Of a stretch of DNA of 64,000 nucleotides, positions 10,526-36,584 are shown one piece after another. The notes under the pieces are model-generated. The model did no database searches. It had not been told where the DNA came from and worked only from the letters and a program-made list of their open reading frames with translations. The translations under genes and the position numbers were made by a program. The stretch's first letter is position 1, and the number at the start of each line of letters is the position of its first letter. Source of the DNA: Tessaracoccus defluvii (GTDB taxonomy: Bacteria > Actinomycetota > Actinomycetes > Propionibacteriales > Propionibacteriaceae); NCBI RefSeq assembly GCF_014489575.1, contig NZ_CP060789.1, positions 3,596,001 to 3,660,000 on the forward strand, given 5' to 3'.

Positions 10526-11857
10526 ATGACACCCCAGCGCCCAGCGCCTCAGGACGCGCGCCCGGACGAGCCGCAGGGCTTCCGTCGACTCGTGCGGATG
10601 GCCGGCCGGCCCTACCTGGTCGCCTCCGCCCTCGCCCGGCTGCCCCAGTCGATGCTCACCATCGGCGCCCTCACCTACGTCGCCGCGGGAGCCGCTGACT
10701 TCACGACCCCCGGCGCCGTCGCCGCGATCGCCGGTGTCGGCGTCGGACTCGGTGCCCCGATCATGGGGGCCGCCTCCGACAGGTGGGGGCAGCGCCGGGT
10801 CCTGCTCGTCTCGACGGTCGCGTACGTCGTGGCGCTCGCCGCACTGCTCGTGGCGGGCGCGCCCCATTTCCCTTCGACAAGCTCAGGGATCACGACAGGC
10901 TCAGGGATCACGACCGGTTCAGGGATCACCGGCGGGACCGTCGAGCTCGACCTGCCGCTCGCGGCCGCGGCCCTGTTCGCGGGCATGGTGGTCCCGCAGA
11001 TCGGGCCCATGACCCGGGTCCGCTGGATCCGCCGTCTCACCGGGCCGCGCGACCACTCCGCCGTCGAACTGGCGCTCGGCTACGAGAGCACCATCGACGA
11101 GATGGCCTACGTCATCGGGCCGGCAGCGGTCGGGATCATCGCCGCAGCCGCCGGCGCCCCGATCCCGCTCGTGATCGCGGCGGTCCTCGTGCTGCTCGCC
11201 GTCCCCGCCTTCGCGTTCGACCGCAGCGCCACGGCCGCTGCTCCCCTGGGCAGGGACGGCGCCGGGGGCCCTGCCGCCGCCCCGGACCGGATCCGCTGGG
11301 GCTTCGTCATGATCGGCATCGCCGGGATGCTGGCGATCGGGACCGTGTTCGGATCGCTCGCGACGACCATGACGGTGTTCGCGGAGGTCACGGGAAACCC
11401 CGGCACCGGCGGCCTCATCTATGCGGCCATCGGGATCACATCCGGCCTGGGCGCGCTCAGCGTGTCGCGGTGGCCGGCGCGGTGGACCGCCGAGATCCGC
11501 TGGCTGGCCTGTGCGGTCGTCGCCGTCCCTGCCGCGGCGGTGCTGCTGCTGGTCACCGAGCCGTGGCAGATGGTGCTGGGCTTGCTGCTGATCGGCGCCC
11601 CGGTCGGCCCCGTCATGGTGACCATCTTCTCCGCTGCAGGGCGGCGGACGCCGCCGGCCCGGCTGGGGTTCGTCATGACGCTGCTGTCGGCGTCGGTGAC
11701 GCTGGGGACGTCCGTGGGGAACCTCCTGGGAGGGACGGCCTCCGACGCCTCCGGCTATCAGGCGGCGCTGGGCGTTACCGTCGGCGCATCCGTCGCGCTG
11801 CTGGTGGCCGGCTTCGGATTCCTGGCGTACGCACGCAGGGAGCGCGCCACGGCGTAG
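10526..11857 (+). CDS. MFS transporter
   Basis: A 443-residue major facilitator with about 12 predicted membrane segments and the cytoplasmic loop GAASDRWGQRRVL between helices 2 and 3, the classic MFS motif. Substrate unknown; overall look is of a drug/metabolite efflux protein. ATG 10526 has a modest AAGGA. Residues of about 119-137, in an external loop, are three copies of a Ser-Gly-Ile-Thr-Thr-Gly hexapeptide encoded by an 18-bp tandem repeat that begins inside a short dispersed repeat. This segment looks like an insertion in an otherwise normal protein. It is transcribed toward argS, 55 bp away. Confidence 0.85.
   Translation: MTPQRPAPQDARPDEPQGFRRLVRMAGRPYLVASALARLPQSMLTIGALTYVAAGAADFTTPGAVAAIAGVGVGLGAPIMGAASDRWGQRRVLLVSTVAYVVALAALLVAGAPHFPSTSSGITTGSGITTGSGITGGTVELDLPLAAAALFAGMVVPQIGPMTRVRWIRRLTGPRDHSAVELALGYESTIDEMAYVIGPAAVGIIAAAAGAPIPLVIAAVLVLLAVPAFAFDRSATAAAPLGRDGAGGPAAAPDRIRWGFVMIGIAGMLAIGTVFGSLATTMTVFAEVTGNPGTGGLIYAAIGITSGLGALSVSRWPARWTAEIRWLACAVVAVPAAAVLLLVTEPWQMVLGLLLIGAPVGPVMVTIFSAAGRRTPPARLGFVMTLLSASVTLGTSVGNLLGGTASDASGYQAALGVTVGASVALLVAGFGFLAYARRERATA
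10870..10935 (+). repeat. Dispersed repeat CCCTTCGA-N6-CAGGGA expanded into 18-bp tandem copies
   Basis: Bases 10870-10889 read CCCTTCGACAAGCTCAGGGA. Its right half is then part of three 18-bp tandem units at 10882-10899, 10900-10917 and 10918-10935 (first two differ at one base, third more diverged). All keep the MFS reading frame because the unit is a multiple of three. A second copy of the 20-bp motif, with a different six-base centre, lies at 13562-13581. Confidence 0.8.
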
Positions 11858-11912
11858 CCCGATCGAGCGTCAACGGTTGGGGCGAACGCTGCGACGATGA
11901 AAGAATGGGCCT

Positions 11913-13547
11913 ATGCAGTCCCTGCCCGCGATTCTGGATGCCCGTCTGCGCGCCGTCACCGGCGTCGACCCCGAGATGCGTCCCGCCACCAAGCCCCAGT
12001 TCGGTCACTACCAGTCCAACGTGGCGCTGCGCCTCGCCAAGGCAGAGGGCCGTCCGCCGCGTGAGGTGGCAGCGGGCATCGTCGAGCGCCTCGACGTCGC
12101 CGACCTGTGCGAGCCGCTCGAGATCGCGGGCCCCGGGTTCCTCAACTTCCGGCTCCGCTCCGACGTCCTCGCCGGCTCCGTCACCGAGCTGCTGGAGGAC
12201 ACCGCGGGGGGCCTCAACAAGGTCAACCATCCGCAGCGGGTCGTCATCGACTACTCGGCGCCGAACGTAGCCAAGCAGATGCACGTCGGGCACCTGCGCA
12301 CCACGATCATCGGCGACTGCTTCAACCGTGTCCTGAGTGCGCTCGGTCATGAGGTCATCCCGCAGAACCACATCGGCGACTGGGGCACCCAGTTCGGCAT
12401 GCTCATCGAGGAGGTCCTCGACGAGAAGCTGGACGTGCCCACCCTCGACCTGACCGCCGCGGACGCCCTCTACAAGCGCGCCGCGGCCCGCTTCCGCGAG
12501 GACGAGGAGTTCGCCACCCGCGCCCGCTCCCGCGTCGCCCTGTTCCAGGGCGGCGACGAGGAATCGCTGACCATCTGGCGGCAGCTGGTCGACATCTCGA
12601 AGCCCGCGTTCAACGAGGCCTACCGGCGGCTGGGCGTCCTGCTCACCGACGACGACCTCGCCGGCGAGTCCACCTACAACGACGACCTCCCCGTCCTCGT
12701 CAAGGAGCTGGAGGAGTCCGGCGTCGCCGTCGTCGACAACGGTGCGCTGTGCGTCTTCGTCGAGGGCTTCGAGGCCCCGCTGATCGTCCGCAAGTCCGAC
12801 GGCGGCTACGGCTACGCGACGACCGACCTGGCCGCCATCCGCCGCCGGGTCCGCGACCTGAAGGCCGACCGCATCATCTACGTCACCGACCTGCGGCAGG
12901 GCGGCCACTTCGCCCAGGTCTTCGCCGCGGCCCGCAAGGCAGGCTTCCTGCCGGAGCATGTCGTCGCCCAGCACGTCGGCTACGGCATGGTGCTCGGCCC
13001 CGACGGCCGCCCGTTCAAGACCCGCGACGGTTCGGCCGCCACGCTCGAGTCGCTCCTCGACGCTGCCGAGGAGATCGCGGCGCCCAACATCGCGCTGGCC
13101 GCCATCAAGTACGCCGACCTGTCCAACGGGCTCCAGAAGGACTACACCTTCGACCCGGAGCGCATGGTCCAGACGACCGGCGACACGGGCCCCTACCTGC
13201 AGTACGCCCACGCCCGCGTCTCGCAGATCCTCCGCAAGGCCCAGGCCGAGGGGATCGGCTACGGCGCCGTCACCGTCCTCGAGGACCCGGTCGAGCAGCA
13301 GCTGGCGCTGCAGCTGAGCCGGTTCGGCGAGGTCGTCGACGAGGTCGCGCAGCAGCTCACCCCGCACAAGCTGTGCGGCTACCTGTATGAGCTGGCCGGC
13401 CAGCTGGCGTCGTTCTACGAGGCGTGCCCGGTGCTGAAGTCGGAGAGCGACGTGCGCGCCTCCCGCCTGGCGCTGTGCGCCGCGACGAAGCAGGTGCTCG
13501 CGCTGGGGCTCCGGATGCTGGGAATGGACGCGCCCGAGCGGATGTGA
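11913..13547 (+). CDS. argS: Arginine--tRNA ligase
   Basis: A 544-residue class I aminoacyl-tRNA synthetase charging tRNA-Arg. The N-terminal Arg-tRNA-synthetase additional domain (KPQFGHYQSNVALRLAK) is followed by the HIGH-type motif MHVGHLRTT (about 124-132), IGDWGTQFGMLIE, and the DALR anticodon-binding domain, with QYAHARVSQILRK. Where many synthetases have KMSKS, this one reads PFKTRDGSA, a variant known in one ArgS lineage. ATG 11913 fits the family start. It converges with ppgK across a repeat-bearing gap. Confidence 0.96.
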   Translation: MQSLPAILDARLRAVTGVDPEMRPATKPQFGHYQSNVALRLAKAEGRPPREVAAGIVERLDVADLCEPLEIAGPGFLNFRLRSDVLAGSVTELLEDTAGGLNKVNHPQRVVIDYSAPNVAKQMHVGHLRTTIIGDCFNRVLSALGHEVIPQNHIGDWGTQFGMLIEEVLDEKLDVPTLDLTAADALYKRAAARFREDEEFATRARSRVALFQGGDEESLTIWRQLVDISKPAFNEAYRRLGVLLTDDDLAGESTYNDDLPVLVKELEESGVAVVDNGALCVFVEGFEAPLIVRKSDGGYGYATTDLAAIRRRVRDLKADRIIYVTDLRQGGHFAQVFAAARKAGFLPEHVVAQHVGYGMVLGPDGRPFKTRDGSAATLESLLDAAEEIAAPNIALAAIKYADLSNGLQKDYTFDPERMVQTTGDTGPYLQYAHARVSQILRKAQAEGIGYGAVTVLEDPVEQQLALQLSRFGEVVDEVAQQLTPHKLCGYLYELAGQLASFYEACPVLKSESDVRASRLALCAATKQVLALGLRMLGMDAPERM

Positions 13548-28697: not shown

Positions 28698-29054
28698 ATG
28701 GCCACCACCCGACGCGTCCGCGCCTCGCGTCGCCGCGCCCGCCGGGTCGCGGCGTCCGGCAGCGACCTGACCGCCGACGAGTGGTTCCTGATCCTCGACG
28801 CCTGGCGGGCCTGCGCCTACTGCGGCGCAGACGGTGCTGCGCTCCAGAAGGACTGCGTGCTGCCCATCTCCCGCGGCGGCCGCTACACGCTCGACAACGT
28901 GGTGCCGGCCTGCGCCTCCTGCAACGCCAGCAAGTGCAACTCGGAGGTCACCACCTGGATGCGGCGGCACCGGCTGGACGAGTCGGACTTCCTGGTCCGC
29001 TGGGCCGAGACGATGCAGGTGTTGAGGGCCGCTTCTGACGGATCGCCCGGCTAG
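28698..29054 (+). CDS. Small HNH-endonuclease-fold protein
   Basis: A 118-residue protein with a basic N-terminus (about ten Arg in the first 20 residues) and an HNH domain: CAYCG, DCVLPISRGGRYTLDNV, and CASCNASK, so the structural zinc Cys pairs are intact. The first catalytic position, usually His in DHVxPxSRGG, is Cys here (DCVLP). The protein may be a related HNH subfamily or a catalytically altered member. It lies 52 bp before the SWIM gene on the same strand and could be part of that locus, though with a proper intergenic gap. Confidence 0.75.
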   Translation: MATTRRVRASRRRARRVAASGSDLTADEWFLILDAWRACAYCGADGAALQKDCVLPISRGGRYTLDNVVPACASCNASKCNSEVTTWMRRHRLDESDFLVRWAETMQVLRAASDGSPG

Positions 29055-29106
29055 AGTACGAACGCCGCCGGCCTGGGCCGGCCGAAAGACCGGGGAGAGG
29101 AGCGCC

Positions 29107-30396
29107 GTGGCTCGCTGGACCGAGGCACAGGTGCTGGCCGCCGCGCCCGACACCTCGTCCGTGGCCGCCGCCCGCAAGCTCGCCAAGCCCGGCCCCTGGA
29201 CAGAGACAGGGGCCAACGAGATCCTCGTCTGGGGCAGCTGTCAGGGAAGCGGCAAGAATCCGTATCAGGTGAGCATCGACCTGGAGGGCCCCGCCTACCG
29301 CTGCTCCTGCCCGAGCCGGAAGTTCCCCTGCAAACACGCCCTCGCGCTGCTCCTGCTGTGGGCCGGCGGCCTGGTGGGGGAGGGGGCCGAGGCGGCCGGC
29401 TTCGCCCAGGAGTGGGCAGACAAGCGGGCCACCCGCAGCGAGGCCCGCACCGTCCGCGCCGAGGCACCCGCCGACCCGGAGGCGCAGGCCAGGCGCCTCG
29501 CCGAGCGGATCGCCCGGATGGACGCCGGCGTCGACGACCTCATCCTCTGGCTCACCGACCTCGTCCGTGCCGGGCTGGTCACCGCCCGCACCCAGCCCTA
29601 CGCCTTCTGGGACCGCGCCGCGGCCCGCCTCGTCGACGCCCAGCTTCCCGGCCTCGCCGACCGCGTCCGCGAGCTCGCCACCCACGCCGCGGGAGAGGCC
29701 TGGGCCGACGACCTGCTCCGCCACCTCGGACGACTGTGGCTGCTCGCCCAGGCCTGGCGCCGTCGGGACGAACTGCCCGCACCGCTGGCCGCCGACCTGC
29801 GTGCCGCCGTCGGGTGGTCGACGCAGCGCGAACAGCTGAGCGACGGCGAGACCCGCACCGACACGTGGCAGGTGCTCGGCGCTTTCCGCACGACGGACGG
29901 GCCGCTCCAGCAGCAGCGCACCTGGGTCCGGGCCGACGGCGGGCCCGTCGGGCTGATCCTCGAGACGGCAGGGCCGGGCCAGGCCCTCGGCATCCCGCAG
30001 CTGGCCGGCGCCCGCCTCGCCGGCACGGCCGCCTGGTACCCGGGCAACGCCCCGGCCCGGCTCTACTTCCCGGAACCGCCCACCCCGGTCGAGCCCGCCA
30101 CGGACGCCGGGCCCGCCGTCACCGTCGCCGAGGCGCGGGCCCAGGTGGCCACGGCCCTCGCCGGGGTCCCCTGGCGGGACCGGTTCCCCGTCACCCTCGC
30201 AGCAGCCCGCTTCCGCCACGACCCGCAGGCCGTCGTCGACGCTGCGGGCGACGCCTTCGCGCTCACCGCGGACACGAACCTCATCCTGCTCCTCGCGCTG
30301 ACGGGTGGGCACCCCCACGACGTGTTCGGAGAGCTGGAGGCGGGGCGGTTCCGCCCGCTCACCCTCGCCCTCGACGGGAAGACGGTGGCGCTGTGA
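29107..30396 (+). CDS. SWIM zinc-finger protein, first gene of the five-gene cassette
   Basis: A 429-residue protein. The SWIM zinc finger CxCx(n)CxH is visible as YRCSCPSRKFPCKHALALLL, about residues 65-84; SWIM domains bind DNA or protein partners. The rest has no family I can name with confidence and is alpha-rich. It starts at GTG 29107 and overlaps the next gene by 4 bases (GTGA at 30393-30396). In Actinobacteria such SWIM genes recur beside DUF5691, MoxR, DUF5682 and VWA genes, as here. Function of the set is unknown. Confidence 0.85.
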   Translation: MARWTEAQVLAAAPDTSSVAAARKLAKPGPWTETGANEILVWGSCQGSGKNPYQVSIDLEGPAYRCSCPSRKFPCKHALALLLLWAGGLVGEGAEAAGFAQEWADKRATRSEARTVRAEAPADPEAQARRLAERIARMDAGVDDLILWLTDLVRAGLVTARTQPYAFWDRAAARLVDAQLPGLADRVRELATHAAGEAWADDLLRHLGRLWLLAQAWRRRDELPAPLAADLRAAVGWSTQREQLSDGETRTDTWQVLGAFRTTDGPLQQQRTWVRADGGPVGLILETAGPGQALGIPQLAGARLAGTAAWYPGNAPARLYFPEPPTPVEPATDAGPAVTVAEARAQVATALAGVPWRDRFPVTLAAARFRHDPQAVVDAAGDAFALTADTNLILLLALTGGHPHDVFGELEAGRFRPLTLALDGKTVAL

Positions 30397-31924
30397 GCGT
30401 GGAGGCATGGATGCGCTCGGTCGAGGCCACCGCACTCGTCGGCACAGGCCGCCGCGCACCGGGCCCCGTTCCTCCCATCGGCATCGCGCCCGTCGACGAC
30501 GGTGACCCGCAGACGCAGCTCCTCGACCAGGCCGCCGTCCTCGACGTCCTGACCCGCGCGGCCGCCACCCCCGACCGCCGGGAGCCCGAGGCGCCGTGCC
30601 CTCCGCAGGCCCGGCCGGCCGCCCCGCCGGAAGCGGAGCAGCTGCTGAGGCTGCTGATCCACCAGCCACCGCTCAAGGGGAACGAGCGGCTGCGCGCCAT
30701 CGAGCACTGGCTCACGCGCTGCGCCGGCTCCGGATACTCGGTGCCCGTCGCGTTGCTGCCCGACCTGCTCACCCTCGCGCGCCAGGACTCGGTGCTCCGG
30801 CCTGCCCTGCGCGCCTCCTGGGACCAGCGGGGCGCGTGGCTCGCCAGCCGCTTCGAGCCCACCCTCGTCGATCCCGGCAGCGGGCCCGACGGCGACCTCG
30901 ATGTGGACGGCTGGCGCAAGCTGTCGGCGAAGGAGGCGACGTCGCGGCTGACCGAGCTCAGGGATGTGGACGCGGCGGCCGGCCTCGCCCGCCTGGTCGA
31001 GCTGTGGCCTGGCTACAGCGCCAAAGAGCGCGGCCAGGTGATCGACGCCCTCGGCACGGGCCTGTCGCTCGACGACGCGTCGTTCCTCGAGGCGGCGCTG
31101 GATGACAAGGGGAAGGCCACCCGCGAGGCCGCCGCTCGGCTCCTTGCCCGGCTTCCCGGCAGCGGGCTGGTCTCCCGCATGTCTGCGCGGCTCCGCTCCC
31201 TGATCGACGTGACCGAGGTCCCGCGGGGCGGGGACTCGGCCGGGTCCTCGGCAGGACGTCGACGGTGGTCAGGGTCGTGCCCCCGGCCGAGGTGGACGCG
31301 GCCGGCGTCCGCGACGGCCTCCGGCCGCAGGCCACCGACCCGGACCGGCGCCACTGGCTGTGTCAGATCCTGGAGGCCGCGGACCCGCGGACGCTGAACG
31401 AGGTGTCCGGCCTCCCGCCGCAGGAACTGGTCGAGGCCCTCGAACTCGACGAGCAGGTCGCTGCGGCGCTGGCCACGGCCGTCGCCAGGCACGCAGACCG
31501 CGAGTGGGCCGCCGCGCTGCTTCCCCATCCGAGCCTCAGGAACGGGAGGGACCTGGCGCTGCTCCTCGACCCGGCCCAGCGCGACGCGTGGCTGATCGGG
31601 CTCATCCGCACCGCTCCCCCCGCCGAGGCGGCGCATGCGCTGCTGAACGTTCCGCGCCCCTGGGTGAAGCCCGTCGCTGCCGTCGTCATCGACCGGCTGA
31701 TCTCCGACAAGGACCGCGGCCACTTCCTCCTGGGCGTCGCCTCGATGCCGGACGGCTTCGGCCCGGACGCCCTGCCGCTGCTGGCCACCCTGCCCGCCGA
31801 CCTCCCCGCCGACCTCGGCGGCATCACGCTGCGCGCAGCCCGCCAGTTCCTGATCTTCAACCAGACCATCGACGAGGCGTTCGCCTCAACCCAGCCACCG
31901 CACCTGCAGGAGGAACACGCGTGA
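30393..31924 (+). CDS. DUF5691-type helical protein (apparent frameshift)
   Basis: A protein of about 510 residues once one base is restored. The first frame starts at GTG 30393 (SVEAWMRSVEATALVGTGRR) and keeps family-like sequence to about 31214 (LIDVTEVPRGG). The -1 frame takes over as VVRVVPPAEVDAAGVRDG through the end. The break lies between 31215 and 31262 in a G-rich stretch. Repeated helix-turn-helix-rich segments (KATREAAARLLARLPGSGL) suggest a HEAT-like solenoid scaffold; this is inference. It overlaps both neighbours by 4 bases, so expression is coupled. Confidence 0.75.
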
Positions 31925-33021
31925 GCACCACCACCGAATCGGTCCTTCGCGCCCATGCCGAGCAGGCGTATGCCGCAGAGCTCGAGGCGCTCGCCGCCGT
32001 CGACGACCGGCCCCGCCCGCCCCGCTGGCGGCTGTCGCCGTGGGCCGTGGCGACCTACCTGCTGGGCGGCACGCTGGCAGACGGCACCATCATCACGCCG
32101 AAGTACCTCGGCAACCGGCGCCTCATCGAGATCGCCATCGCGTCGCTGGCCACCGACCGGGCGCTGCTGCTGCTGGGCGTCCCCGGCACGGCGAAGTCAT
32201 GGGTCAGCGAACACCTCGCCGCCGCCGTCAGCGGCAATTCGACCCTGGTCGTGCAGGGCACCGCGGGCACGCCCGAGGAGGCCATCCGCTACGGCTGGAA
32301 CTACGCCCGCCTGCTCGCCGAGGGCCCGTCGACGGCGGCGTTGGTGCCCGGCCCCGTGATGCGCGCCATGGCCGACGGCGGCCTCGTCCGCGTCGAGGAG
32401 CTGACCCGCATCCCCGCCGACGTGCAGGACTCCCTCATCACGATCCTCAGCGAGAAGACGCTGCCGATCCCGGAGCTCGACACCGAGGTGCAGGCCGTGC
32501 GCGGCTTCAACCTCATCGCCACCGCAAACAATCGTGACAAGGGCGTCAACGACCTGTCGTCGGCCCTGCGCCGCCGCTTCACCACCGTCGTGCTTCCCCT
32601 GCCCGACTCGCTCGACCAGGAGGTGGAGATCGTCCAGACCCGCGTGGTCAGCCTCGGCGCCTCCCTCGAGCTGCCGGCCGATCTCGCCGCGCTCAGCGAG
32701 ATCCGCCGCGTCGTCACCGTCATGCGTGAACTCCGCTCCGGCGTCACGGCGGACGGCCGCACCACCATCAAGTCGCCGACGTCGACCCTCTCGACCGCCG
32801 AGGCGATCTCCGTGATGACCAGCGGGCTGAGCCTCGCCGCTCACTTCGGCGACGGCGCCGTCGGCGCGCACGACGTCGCGGCCGGCCTCGTCGGGGCCGT
32901 CGTCAAGGACCCGGTGCAGGACACCGTCGTGTGGCGCGAGTACCTGGAGACCGTGGTGCGGAACCGGCCCGAGTGGGCCGACCTGTACCGCGCGTGCCGT
33001 GACCTCGACGTGGCCGGCTGA
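31921..33021 (+). CDS. MoxR-family AAA+ ATPase
   Basis: A 366-residue AAA+ ATPase. Walker A is GVPGTAKSW (about residues 87-95), with Ala where most P-loops have Gly before the Lys. The Walker B position reads LVRVEELTR, Glu-Glu instead of Asp-Glu. Sensor 1 is LIATANNRD and the arginine-finger region is SSALRRRF. MoxR ATPases usually act with a VWA protein as a remodelling pair, and a VWA gene follows two genes later. GTG 31921 overlaps the upstream TGA. The Walker changes may be subfamily traits; ATPase activity is likely but unproven. Confidence 0.9.
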   Translation: MSTTTESVLRAHAEQAYAAELEALAAVDDRPRPPRWRLSPWAVATYLLGGTLADGTIITPKYLGNRRLIEIAIASLATDRALLLLGVPGTAKSWVSEHLAAAVSGNSTLVVQGTAGTPEEAIRYGWNYARLLAEGPSTAALVPGPVMRAMADGGLVRVEELTRIPADVQDSLITILSEKTLPIPELDTEVQAVRGFNLIATANNRDKGVNDLSSALRRRFTTVVLPLPDSLDQEVEIVQTRVVSLGASLELPADLAALSEIRRVVTVMRELRSGVTADGRTTIKSPTSTLSTAEAISVMTSGLSLAAHFGDGAVGAHDVAAGLVGAVVKDPVQDTVVWREYLETVVRNRPEWADLYRACRDLDVAG

Positions 33022-33057
33022 CATGCCATCCAGGCGGCCACCGCGGCAGGCGGCCCC

Positions 33058-35412
33058 ATGACGAGCGTCCACGTCCTGGGGGTGCGGCATCACGGGCCAG
33101 GGTCGGCGCGCTCCGTCGCCGAGGCCCTCGACGAGCTGCGCCCCGACCTGGTCCTGATCGAGGGCCCGCCCGAGCTCGACGCCCTGCACCCGCTGGCCGG
33201 CGACCCCGACCTGGTGCCGCCCGTCGCGGCGCTGGTCTACGCGTCCGACGAGCCGCAGCGCGCCAGCTTCTACCCCATGGCGGCGTTCTCCCCGGAATGG
33301 GTCGCGCTGCGGTGGGCCGCGGCGGCGGGGGTGCCGCAGAGGTTCATCGACCTGCCGGCCTCGCACCGCGTCGGGATCGTGCGCGCCGCAGCGGAGCGGG
33401 CCGCGGCCGAGGCCACCGGTGAAGAGGACGCTGACGAGGAGGACGCGGCGCTGCGCTTCGGGGACGCCGACGACGCCGCGCCGGCCGATGAGCCCGCGAC
33501 GGTGCCCGCCGACCCGATCACCACGCTGGCCCGCGTCGCCGGCTACGACGACCCCGAGCGCTGGTGGGAGGACGCCGTCGAGCAGCGCTCCGGCTCCGCC
33601 CTCGAGCGCTTCGCCGCCATCGCCGAAGGGATCGCGGAGCTGCGCGCCGACGAGGACGGCGACCCCGGCGTCCGCGACGACGACGGCGAACTCGACTTCG
33701 ACGCCCTCGAACATCCGCTCGGCCGCCCCATGACCGGGCTGCGCGAGGCGGCCATGCGGCGCGAGCTGCGCGCCGCCATGAAGGAGGGGCACGACACGAT
33801 CGTCGTCGTCTGCGGAGCCTGGCATGCCCCCGCGCTCGACCCGGCCGCGTTCCCGCCCGTCGCGCACGACTCCCGGCTGCTCCGCGGGCTGCCGAAGGCG
33901 AAGATGTCGGCGGCCTGGGTGCCGTGGACGGCGAACCGGCTCTCGCTGGCCTCCGGCTACGGGGCCGGCGTCACGTCGCCCGGCTGGTACCGCCACCTGT
34001 TCGACCACTGGGCCACCGGCGCCGACCACGACGCCGCCCTCGGCTGGCTCGTCCGCGTCGCCCGCGAGCTGCGGGCCCAGGGGATCGACGCGTCCACCGC
34101 GTCCGTCGTCGACGCGGCCCGCCTCGCCACCAACCTCGCCGCGCTCCGCGGACGTCCCAGCCCCGGCCTGACCGAGCTGTACGACGCGGCCCTCGGGGTC
34201 CTCGCCGACGGCAACCCGCTACCCCTGCAACTGGTGGACGACGCGCTGGTCGTCGGGCATGACCTCGGCTCCGTGCCCGAGTCGGCGCCGCTCGTGCCGC
34301 TCGCGGCCGACCTGGCGAAGGCGCAGAAGTCCACCCGGCTCAAGCCCGGCGCCGCGCAGCAGCTGGTCACCCTCGACCTGCGCACCGACGCCGGCCGCGC
34401 CCGGTCGCTGCTGCTGCACCGGCTGCGGCTGCTCGACATCGACTGGGGCGAGATCGCCTACGCGACCCGCACCACCGGCACCTTCAAGGAACAGTGGCAG
34501 CTCGAGTGGCGCCCCGAACTGGCGATCGCGCTGGTCGAGGCGTCGCTGTTCGGCACCACCATCCTCGGCGCGGCGACGGCGAAGGCGGCCCACCTCGCAG
34601 CCGACGCGTCGGTGCCGGAACTGTCGCGCCTGATCGACCGGTGTCTGGTCGCCGAGATCCCCGTCCACGAGGTCGTGGCACGGCTCGCCGAGCTGACCGC
34701 CGTCCACACCGACGTCCTGGACCTGCTCGATTCCATCGAGCCGCTCGCCCGCGTCAGCCGGTACGGCACCGTGCGCCGCGTCGACACCGACGAGGTCGTC
34801 GCCGTCCTGCGCACCATCGTCGTGCGGGCCTGCGTGGGGCTTCCCGTCGCGGCCGCGGCGATCGACGCGGGGGAGGCGGCCCGGCTCCTGCGGGCCGTCG
34901 ACTCCGCCCACGCCGGGCTGACCCTGATCGAGGACGAGGACCTCCTCGCGCAGTGGCACGCGGCGCTCGGCGTCGTCGCCGCCCGCGATCAGATCCCCGG
35001 CCTCGTCGCGGGGCGCGCCACCCGGCTGCTGCTCGATGCGGGCCTGCTGGAGCGCGACGCCGTCGCCGTCTCGATGCGGCGCTGGCTGTCGCTCGCGCAC
35101 GACCCCGGCGACGCGGCGGGCTGGCTGGACGGCTTCCTCGCCGGCTCCGCCGTCATCCTCGTGCACGACCCTGCGCTGCTGTCCATCGTCGACGGCTGGG
35201 TCGCCCAGGTCGAGCCCGAGGCGTTCGACGATCTGCTGCCGCTGCTGCGCCGCACATTCTCCGAGTTCGCCAAGCCAGAACGGCGGATGATCGGCGAGCG
35301 TGTCTCCCGCGGCGCGGTCGTCGAGGCGGCGCCCGCCGAACTGCGGCTGGAGGCCGCCGGCCCGGCCCTCGCCACCGTCGCCGGGCTGCTCGGCTGGAAG
35401 GAGTCCGCATGA
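33058..35412 (+). CDS. DUF5682 family protein, possible ChaN/EreA/TIKI-like hydrolase
   Basis: A 784-residue cytosolic protein. Near the N-terminus is GVRHHGPGSARSVAEAL (residues 7-23), then DLVLIEGPPE (about 33-42), and later VVVCGAWHAPAL (about 249-260). This order, Gly-x-x-His, acidic strand, Gly-x-x-His, resembles the active-site layout of the EreA/ChaN/TraB (TIKI) superfamily; that link is inference. The other 500 residues are helical with no motif I recognise. It starts 36 bp after the MoxR gene and overlaps the VWA gene by 4 bases, so it is probably the client or effector of the MoxR-VWA pair. Confidence 0.8.
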   Translation: MTSVHVLGVRHHGPGSARSVAEALDELRPDLVLIEGPPELDALHPLAGDPDLVPPVAALVYASDEPQRASFYPMAAFSPEWVALRWAAAAGVPQRFIDLPASHRVGIVRAAAERAAAEATGEEDADEEDAALRFGDADDAAPADEPATVPADPITTLARVAGYDDPERWWEDAVEQRSGSALERFAAIAEGIAELRADEDGDPGVRDDDGELDFDALEHPLGRPMTGLREAAMRRELRAAMKEGHDTIVVVCGAWHAPALDPAAFPPVAHDSRLLRGLPKAKMSAAWVPWTANRLSLASGYGAGVTSPGWYRHLFDHWATGADHDAALGWLVRVARELRAQGIDASTASVVDAARLATNLAALRGRPSPGLTELYDAALGVLADGNPLPLQLVDDALVVGHDLGSVPESAPLVPLAADLAKAQKSTRLKPGAAQQLVTLDLRTDAGRARSLLLHRLRLLDIDWGEIAYATRTTGTFKEQWQLEWRPELAIALVEASLFGTTILGAATAKAAHLAADASVPELSRLIDRCLVAEIPVHEVVARLAELTAVHTDVLDLLDSIEPLARVSRYGTVRRVDTDEVVAVLRTIVVRACVGLPVAAAAIDAGEAARLLRAVDSAHAGLTLIEDEDLLAQWHAALGVVAARDQIPGLVAGRATRLLLDAGLLERDAVAVSMRRWLSLAHDPGDAAGWLDGFLAGSAVILVHDPALLSIVDGWVAQVEPEAFDDLLPLLRRTFSEFAKPERRMIGERVSRGAVVEAAPAELRLEAAGPALATVAGLLGWKESA

Positions 35413-36584
35413 GCGACGAGGAACGACTGACCCGCTGGCGGCTCATCCTCGGCGCCGACGAGGCCGACGGCGTCACCCTCGACGGCGCGCCGCTGACTCT
35501 CAGCGCCGACGACGGCAACCGCGACCGCGTGCTGGGCGACCTCTACGACGGCACCCGTCGCGGCGGGCTCGGCGCGTCCAGCCCCCGCGTCGCCCGCTGG
35601 CTGGGCGACATCCGCAGCTACTTCCCGTCGTCGGTGGTGCAGGTGATGCAGGGCGACGCGATGGAGCGGCTCGGCCTGTCGCAGCTGCTGCTGGAGCCGG
35701 AGATGATGAAGGCCGTCCAGCCCGACATCTCCCTTGTCAGCACCCTCCTGTCGCTGACGGGGGTGATCCCGGCGCACTCGAAGGAGACCGCGCGCGCCGT
35801 CGTCCGGCACGTCACCCAGGAGCTGGAGGAACGGCTGCGGTCCCGCACCATCCAGGCGGTCACGGGCGCGCTGGACCGGTCGAACCGCACCAACCGGCCC
35901 CGGATGCGCGACATCGACTGGGACCGCACGATCACGGCGAACCTGAAGCACTACCTGCCCGAGTACAACACCGTCGTGCCGGAGCGGCTCGTCGGCAACG
36001 CGCGGCGCAGGCCGCAGGTGCAGCGCGAGATCATCCTCTGCATCGACTCGTCGGGCTCGATGGGGCAGTCCGTCGTGTACTCCAGCGTGTTCGGGGCGGT
36101 GCTGGCGTCGGTCTCGTCGCTCACGACCCGGCTCGTGGTGTTCGACACCGCCGTCGTCGACCTGACCGAGGAGCTCGACGACCCCGTCGACGTGCTGTTC
36201 GGCGTGCAACTGGGCGGCGGCACCGACATCAACCGGGCCCTGGCCTATTGCCAGGGGCACATCACGCGGCCCACCGACACGGTGCTCGTGCTCATTTCCG
36301 ACCTCGAGGAGGGCGGCATCGCCGAGGAGATGCTGCGCCGCAGCCGCGAGATCGTCGACTCCGGCGCGACCATGATCGCGCTGCTCGCCCTGAGCGACGA
36401 CGGCCGCCCCCACTACGACGCAGGGCACGCGGCGGCGCTGGCCGAGATCGGGGTGCCCGCGTTCGCCTGCACCCCGGACCTGTTCCCCGACCTGATGGCC
36501 GCGGCGATCCAGCGCCTCGACCTGGGCGGGTGGGCGGCGGCCAACGACATCGTCACCACCCACGGGGAAGCAGCGACGGGGTGA
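35409..36584 (+). CDS. VWA-domain protein with intact MIDAS
   Basis: A 391-residue protein. The N-terminal half is helical and basic (LEERLRSRTIQAVTGALDRS). The C-terminal von Willebrand A domain has a complete metal-ion-dependent adhesion site: DSSGS (Asp213), the Thr of GGGTDINRAL and the Asp of LISDLEEGG. Such VWA proteins partner with MoxR ATPases. ATG 35409 overlaps the DUF5682 TGA. It is the last gene of the cassette; the next gene begins 37 bp later. Confidence 0.88.
   Translation: MSDEERLTRWRLILGADEADGVTLDGAPLTLSADDGNRDRVLGDLYDGTRRGGLGASSPRVARWLGDIRSYFPSSVVQVMQGDAMERLGLSQLLLEPEMMKAVQPDISLVSTLLSLTGVIPAHSKETARAVVRHVTQELEERLRSRTIQAVTGALDRSNRTNRPRMRDIDWDRTITANLKHYLPEYNTVVPERLVGNARRRPQVQREIILCIDSSGSMGQSVVYSSVFGAVLASVSSLTTRLVVFDTAVVDLTEELDDPVDVLFGVQLGGGTDINRALAYCQGHITRPTDTVLVLISDLEEGGIAEEMLRRSREIVDSGATMIALLALSDDGRPHYDAGHAAALAEIGVPAFACTPDLFPDLMAAAIQRLDLGGWAAANDIVTTHGEAATG

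Follow-up and report, generated by a model that had tools for sequence, protein, structure and literature searches.

A five-gene cassette related to E. coli yehLMPQ

The 64,000-nucleotide stretch of the Tessaracoccus defluvii genome analysed here (the window, positions 3596001-3660000 of the 3.86 Mb single-contig genome) carries, on its + strand at 29107-36584, a cassette of genes for a SWIM-type zinc-finger protein, a DUF5691 protein, a MoxR AAA+ ATPase, a DUF5682 protein and a VWA protein (Table 1). The gene calls rest on reading frames and Pfam matches. The five-gene cassette does exist and forms a single system and, by sequence, it is the DUF5691 variant of the yehL-yehM-yehP-yehQ system of Escherichia coli, with its ATPase in the YehL subfamily of MoxR. 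This kinship was overlooked in the original prediction, made from the letters of the window alone. The MoxR protein is 39% identical to YehL over 365 positions, and the DUF5682 and VWA proteins are 30% and 35% identical to YehM and YehP, respectively. BLAST between the window SWIM protein and YehQ gave nothing significant; by profile comparison the window and E. coli SWIM proteins are homologous outside the finger (96.7%).

In E. coli K-12 yehL-yehM-yehP-yehQ lie downstream of yehI, which encodes a DUF4132 protein, and of the WGR gene yehF. Of 5426 complete E. coli genomes, 5301 have matches to the yeh genes, 5162 of them across at least 80% of the query, and 5320 of the 5322 places are chromosomal. 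YehL is named as a subfamily of MoxR in two sources (PMC3893208, PMC11432383). Searches of open-licence literature yielded no functional study of DUF5682, DUF5691 or yehL/M/P/Q, and neither a target nor a phenotype of the system came to light.

Table 1. Genes of the cassette and the HNH gene beside it (window positions)
Feature	Position	Strand	Evidence or remark
Small HNH protein, 118 residues	28698..29054		upstream of cassette, not counted as member
SWIM-type zinc-finger protein, 429 residues	29107..30396	+	PF04434 E 1.2e-7; motif CSCPSRKFPCKH
DUF5691 gene, part 1 (helical repeat), early stop	30393..31397	+	PF18944 profile 4-265, E 4.9e-60
DUF5691 gene, part 2, other frame (frameshifted copy)	31265..31924	+	PF18944 profile 265-433, E 1.3e-24
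MoxR AAA+ ATPase, YehL subfamily, 366 residues	31921..33021	+	AAA_5 E 6.9e-37
DUF5682 protein (YehM family), 784 residues	33058..35412	+	DUF5682 profile E 1.6e-230
CoxE-type VWA protein (YehP family), 391 residues	35409..36584	+	VWA_CoxE E 9.5e-51

The original prediction had four of the five genes overlapping a neighbour by 4 bases and the fifth starting after a gap of 36 bases. Three of the four junctions do overlap by 4 bases (GTGA, GTGA and ATGA), and the gap lies at the fourth, between the MoxR and DUF5682 genes. The original prediction had taken the DUF5691 gene as one open frame and missed that this is frameshifted, with the break lying within 31200-31400. A public protein of 504 residues, P0248, matches both parts, with 100% identity across 81% of part 1 and 97.9% identity over 234 residues to part 2, and the gene is open in the relative genome G184. 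As intact copies exist, the break is recent or strain-specific, or else an assembly error. HEAT matches to part 1 are weak and below the Pfam cut-off. The DUF5682 protein of Tessaracoccus aquimaris is 67% identical to that of the window.

A fixed core with variable partners

Co-occurrence was surveyed in 197 genomes of the family and in a phylum sample of 296 Actinomycetota genomes. DUF5682 is present in 77 of the family genomes, and DUF5691, above the Pfam cut-off, in 48, every one of which also has DUF5682 (48/77 DUF5682-positive versus 0/120 DUF5682-negative genomes; Fisher p about 6e-26, which overstates independence because the genomes are related). The phylum sample gives 18/21 versus 0/275 (p about 5e-26, to be read with the same caution), together with three further genomes that have DUF5691 matches under the cut-off and are without DUF5682.

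Gene order was read at 76 loci with DUF5682 (75 distinct, L045 and L060 being one and the same), comprising the window, E. coli K-12, 14 of the 15 loci from named genomes (L033, a short contig, was left out) and 60 further places. These 60, 40 from the family list and 20 of the 33 on the phylum list, were hand-picked for score classes and flanks, and a few are truncated at contig ends; L077, the MoxR gene of which is truncated in this way, was left out of the trees and residue counts. Since all loci were found through DUF5682, the counts describe what adjoins DUF5682 and not the reverse.

MoxR and VWA genes adjoin DUF5682 at all 76 loci, around which four locus types can be distinguished. Type A, the SWIM-DUF5691-MoxR-DUF5682-VWA arrangement of the window, is found at 44 loci, in exactly this order at 40, with SWIM-DUF5691 divergent at three and expanded at one, so that the five genes, predicted to belong together, are indeed kept together rather than scattered. 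At the expanded locus (L081) one core lies beside four DUF5691-like and two SWIM-like genes. Type B (20 loci, including E. coli) has DUF4132 and a larger SWIM protein, in a permuted order at some loci. In type C (eight loci) DUF5682 and VWA are fused in a single frame and accompanied by a frame with a SWIM motif, while type D (four loci) consists of VWA-MoxR-DUF5682 with no SWIM gene seen. Genome G159 carries types A, B and C together. All eight type C loci (L061-L064, L098-L101) also have a large upstream frame of one family, of up to about 1960 codons, the L061 copy of which, the one examined, has no Pfam match; likewise all four type D loci (L104-L107) have an extra gene from one family of unknown kind, with no Pfam match for the L104 copy, again the one examined. 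DUF5691 and DUF4132 were considered as distant homologues and rejected (hhalign 1.2%).

Loci with the type A order are spread over Actinomycetota, Deinococcota, Bacteroidota and Alphaproteobacteria, the last three lying outside the phylum of the window, and the system as a whole was encountered in records of five phyla. A plasmid collection holds 36 records with the system, at least nine of them longer than 2 Mb and chromosome-like. Type A is found there in records, some chromosome-sized, of Deinococcus, Hymenobacter, Methylosinus, Rhizobium and Nonomuraea. The Deinococcus and Hymenobacter loci have one small additional gene before DUF5682, and in Hymenobacter SWIM and DUF5691 are fused as one protein of 1009 residues. 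An Allorhizobium record is of type B with permuted order, and a Fusobacterium record has SWIM, MoxR, DUF5682 and VWA with no DUF5691 detected. The Methylosinus plasmid cassette (L112) has a broken VWA gene, split over three frames at 11226-12394. Only one of 50,697 phage records has the system, and this is an unverified contig. The DUF5682 and VWA proteins of the window (P0005 and P0006) match PHROG 30700 and 31592, both of unknown function, the VWA protein over nearly its full length (E 1e-61); some viral or prophage sequences therefore seem to carry relatives.

Types A, C and D come out in the MoxR, DUF5682 and VWA trees alike (each of 75 loci), and type B in two of the three; the VWA tree supports A and B weakly. 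Pairwise distances of the core proteins correlate at 0.92-0.96 overall and at 0.84-0.92 within type A, the type A values being reached by none of 999 permutations; shared species history contributes to these correlations. As trees and distances largely agree, the core would appear to move as a unit while the outer subunits are exchanged. By sequence, then, MoxR, DUF5682 and VWA are the fixed core, around which SWIM (except in type D) and, in types A and B, DUF5691 or DUF4132, the latter often with WGR, vary. The fusions of DUF5682 with VWA and of SWIM with DUF5691 hint at physical complexes. The preserved order and the agreement of the core trees support the earlier proposal of one multi-subunit machine, based on a MoxR-VWA pair and including a large protein with hydrolase-like motifs.

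The subunits and the neighbouring genes

The DUF5682 protein has an N-terminal alpha/beta domain (about residues 1-268) followed by a mostly helical C-terminal region. The predicted fold of the N-terminal domain is matched best by enzymes of the TraB/PrgY/GumN and TIKI superfamily. H11/H12 (HH), E35 (E), R229 (R) and H256 (GxxH) are invariant in the locus alignment, across types of very low overall similarity, and in a permissive alignment they follow the TraB order, with no counterpart of the first Glu of the 2His/2Glu set. The TraB side of this comparison comprised eight TraB/GumN sequences, from E. coli, one other genome and six plasmids, assembled because a search of 100 Actinomycetota genomes returned one match, too few for a profile. 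Even with E values up to 10 admitted, neither the window protein nor three other DUF5682 N-terminal domains matched PF01963 (TraB/PrgY/GumN). No sequence link to solved structures was found; uracil-DNA glycosylases (E 0.35) and coiled or helical proteins (E 0.17 and above) were disregarded, and families missing from the structure lists were not taken as evidence. The N-terminal domain is predicted, here for the first time, to be probably a remote TraB/TIKI-type hydrolase domain. Weak Foldseek matches of the C-terminal region (condensin CAP-G, importins and others) were taken only as 'helical repeat'.

The MoxR protein has a Walker A motif, GVPGTAKS, and a Walker B-like RVEELTR. Walker A, Walker B, sensor 1 and the arginine finger are present across the 75 aligned loci, with the last Arg of the arginine-finger string replaced by P in one type B row. 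Among solved structures, midasin (E 1.8e-18) and NorQ (E 3.9e-8) are nearest to the MoxR protein in sequence. The metal site of the VWA protein is intact (DxSxS, T272 and D298). This protein has no solved relative at E 0.1 and, with 13.2 bits against a cut-off of 500, does not match the model NF008230 for ViaA of the RavA/ViaA pair. In the C-terminal part of the SWIM protein beta domains are predicted that are at best OB-like, with weak OB scores, and against solved structures the protein gave one chance-like match (E 0.011).

Ordinary genes surround the cassette in the window, coding for FAD-linked oxidase, 5'-nucleotidase, undecaprenyl-phosphate translocase-like, GNAT, methyltransferase, PPK2 and HAD proteins, together with an ABC-transporter-like set named from its frames with no family search. 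The 5'-nucleotidase (PF06189, 23780-24742) matches the PADLOC candidate PDC-S08 (E 5e-131), the sole strong match of the ten neighbours scanned; for the transporter ATPase and the methyltransferase there are PADLOC matches to parts of mad genes. The HNH gene is present upstream, as originally described, but was rejected as a sixth member; in a single-sequence query of low sensitivity it adjoins the cassette at one of 76 loci, that of the window. The best NCBIfam match of its product is IscB, across the HNH part and far below the cut-off, and it matches PADLOC HNH-type models at E 6e-5 or weaker. When the flanks of 75 loci were clustered (809 frames from a crude open-frame picker) the most widespread family outside the core was found at 11.

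Possible functions and relation to known systems

The original prediction likened the cassette to MoxR-VWA conflict systems, and MoxR-vWA pairs are indeed described from such systems (PMC7159879). An anti-phage role analogous to that of the MoxR-vWA-VMAP ternary systems would agree with the patchy occurrence in the family, the plasmid-collection records, allowing for those that are chromosome-like, and the PHROG matches of the DUF5682 and VWA pair. Such a role is nonetheless very unlikely, as the system is nearly fixed and chromosomal in E. coli, its third component is constant and is not VMAP/iSTAND, and a domain scan of the window and E. coli proteins found neither a VMAP/iSTAND component nor an effector domain. 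Above the Pfam cut-offs the five proteins match only DUF5682, DUF5691, SWIM, AAA_5 and VWA_CoxE, with bpMoxR at 26.0 bits against a cut-off of 27. PADLOC-DB 2.0.0 has no model for the cassette, with no match for SWIM, DUF5691, DUF5682 or VWA; the MoxR matches are weak (E 0.018 and 0.037). The single phage record points the same way, and no defence neighbours recur among the flanking families (the PADLOC scan covered the window). Defence was consequently rejected as the main reading on the constant components, the near-fixation in E. coli and the lack of recurrent neighbours. On the unlikely side, too, though to be taken more seriously, is a NorQ/NorD-, CbbQ/CbbO- or CoxD/CoxE-like pair that opens a specific client enzyme, with DUF5682 as a non-catalytic client-binding scaffold. 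Midasin and NorQ being the nearest solved relatives of the MoxR protein, the VWA protein being CoxE-type and known MoxR-VWA pairs acting in cofactor insertion or enzyme maturation, as PMC9976466 and PMC3893208 describe, all favour this, but no client enzyme gene is widely recurrent beside the loci, and the catalytic-looking residues of DUF5682 are kept where little else is.

A related and unlikely proposal, which overlaps the reading favoured below and adds a target to it, is that nucleic acid is bound by the SWIM/OB and WGR parts and stripped of proteins by the ATPase and hydrolase. It is consistent with the OB-like matches, although their scores are weak, and with type B partners, which can carry WGR and DUF4132; D. 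radiodurans DUF4132 and WGR genes, which may or may not sit in such a locus, are up on DdrO depletion (PMC8533742). A scan for damage boxes of the actinobacterial, alphaproteobacterial, E. coli and Deinococcus types covered the 300 bases ahead of each of 49 type A loci. There is a weak excess of damage-box-like sites (9/49 loci at 3 mismatches versus 3.8 expected), and Deinococcus-type boxes occur at 3/49 loci at 4 mismatches versus 0.7 expected, one of the three being the Deinococcus locus L110. These are poor matches, however, the shuffles (10 rounds) preserved base composition only, and exact E. coli-type boxes occur at 0/49. One LexA-like site with 1 mismatch lies ahead of yehF.

The reading that we favour, tentatively and with close to an even chance of being right, is an ATP-driven maturation or quality-control hydrolase, and neither a cofactor chelatase nor an abortive defence system. 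The adjacency, fusions and motifs of the genes are established by sequence; beyond these, MoxR would assemble as a hexamer, and the VWA protein would dock on it and, as in the NorQ/NorD pair, use its metal site to grip the target. The SWIM protein and its helical-repeat partner would choose the target; should the SWIM protein indeed be OB-like, that target may be bound to nucleic acid. Once remodelled by the MoxR-VWA motor, the selected target could be hydrolysed by the predicted N-terminal domain of DUF5682, at a peptide, ester or similar bond. To our knowledge, with no search aimed at the question, no MoxR system with a built-in hydrolase has been described. It would be bolder, and rather improbable, to propose a new bacterial class of AAA+-coupled hydrolase, in which MoxR-VWA feeds a TraB/TIKI-type protease/esterase, a SWIM/OB nucleic-acid-binding subunit directs it, and exchangeable adaptors (DUF5691, DUF4132/WGR) determine the target. 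The system is widespread, in several phyla and most complete E. coli genomes. The residue-level prediction for DUF5682 makes an orphan MoxR subfamily testable in K-12, and the exchangeable partners provide a natural experiment in how MoxR-VWA motors choose their targets.

With the MoxR-vWA-VMAP/iSTAND systems the cassette shares a MoxR and a vWA protein accompanied by a third, which here is always DUF5682, with no variable effector domains or VMAP-C seen. NorQ/NorD, CbbQ/CbbO, RavA/ViaA and CoxD/CoxE likewise combine an AAA+ MoxR protein with a VWA protein that has a metal site, and the motor principle is likely the same; NorQ/NorD and other such chaperones differ in having known, dedicated client enzymes, and we know of no DUF5682, SWIM or DUF5691 partner for any of the four pairs. 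The predicted N-terminal domain of DUF5682 has TraB/PrgY/GumN and TIKI enzymes as its best fold matches and appears to share their motif order GxxH, E, R, GxxH, but lies under Pfam detection, is missing the first Glu of TIKI, forms one protein with a large helical region and is associated with an AAA+ ATPase. The nearest relative remains yehLMPQ, uncharacterised like the cassette, in which orthologous MoxR, DUF5682 and VWA genes are adjacent and the SWIM protein is homologous at the profile level, but SWIM comes last and a DUF4132 gene is nearby in place of DUF5691. As YehL-type MoxR proteins with VWA partners are already recognised, the motor is not a new kind of module; the cassette is clearly a variant shared across phyla, and what is new, and open to test, is the role assigned to its invariant third subunit.

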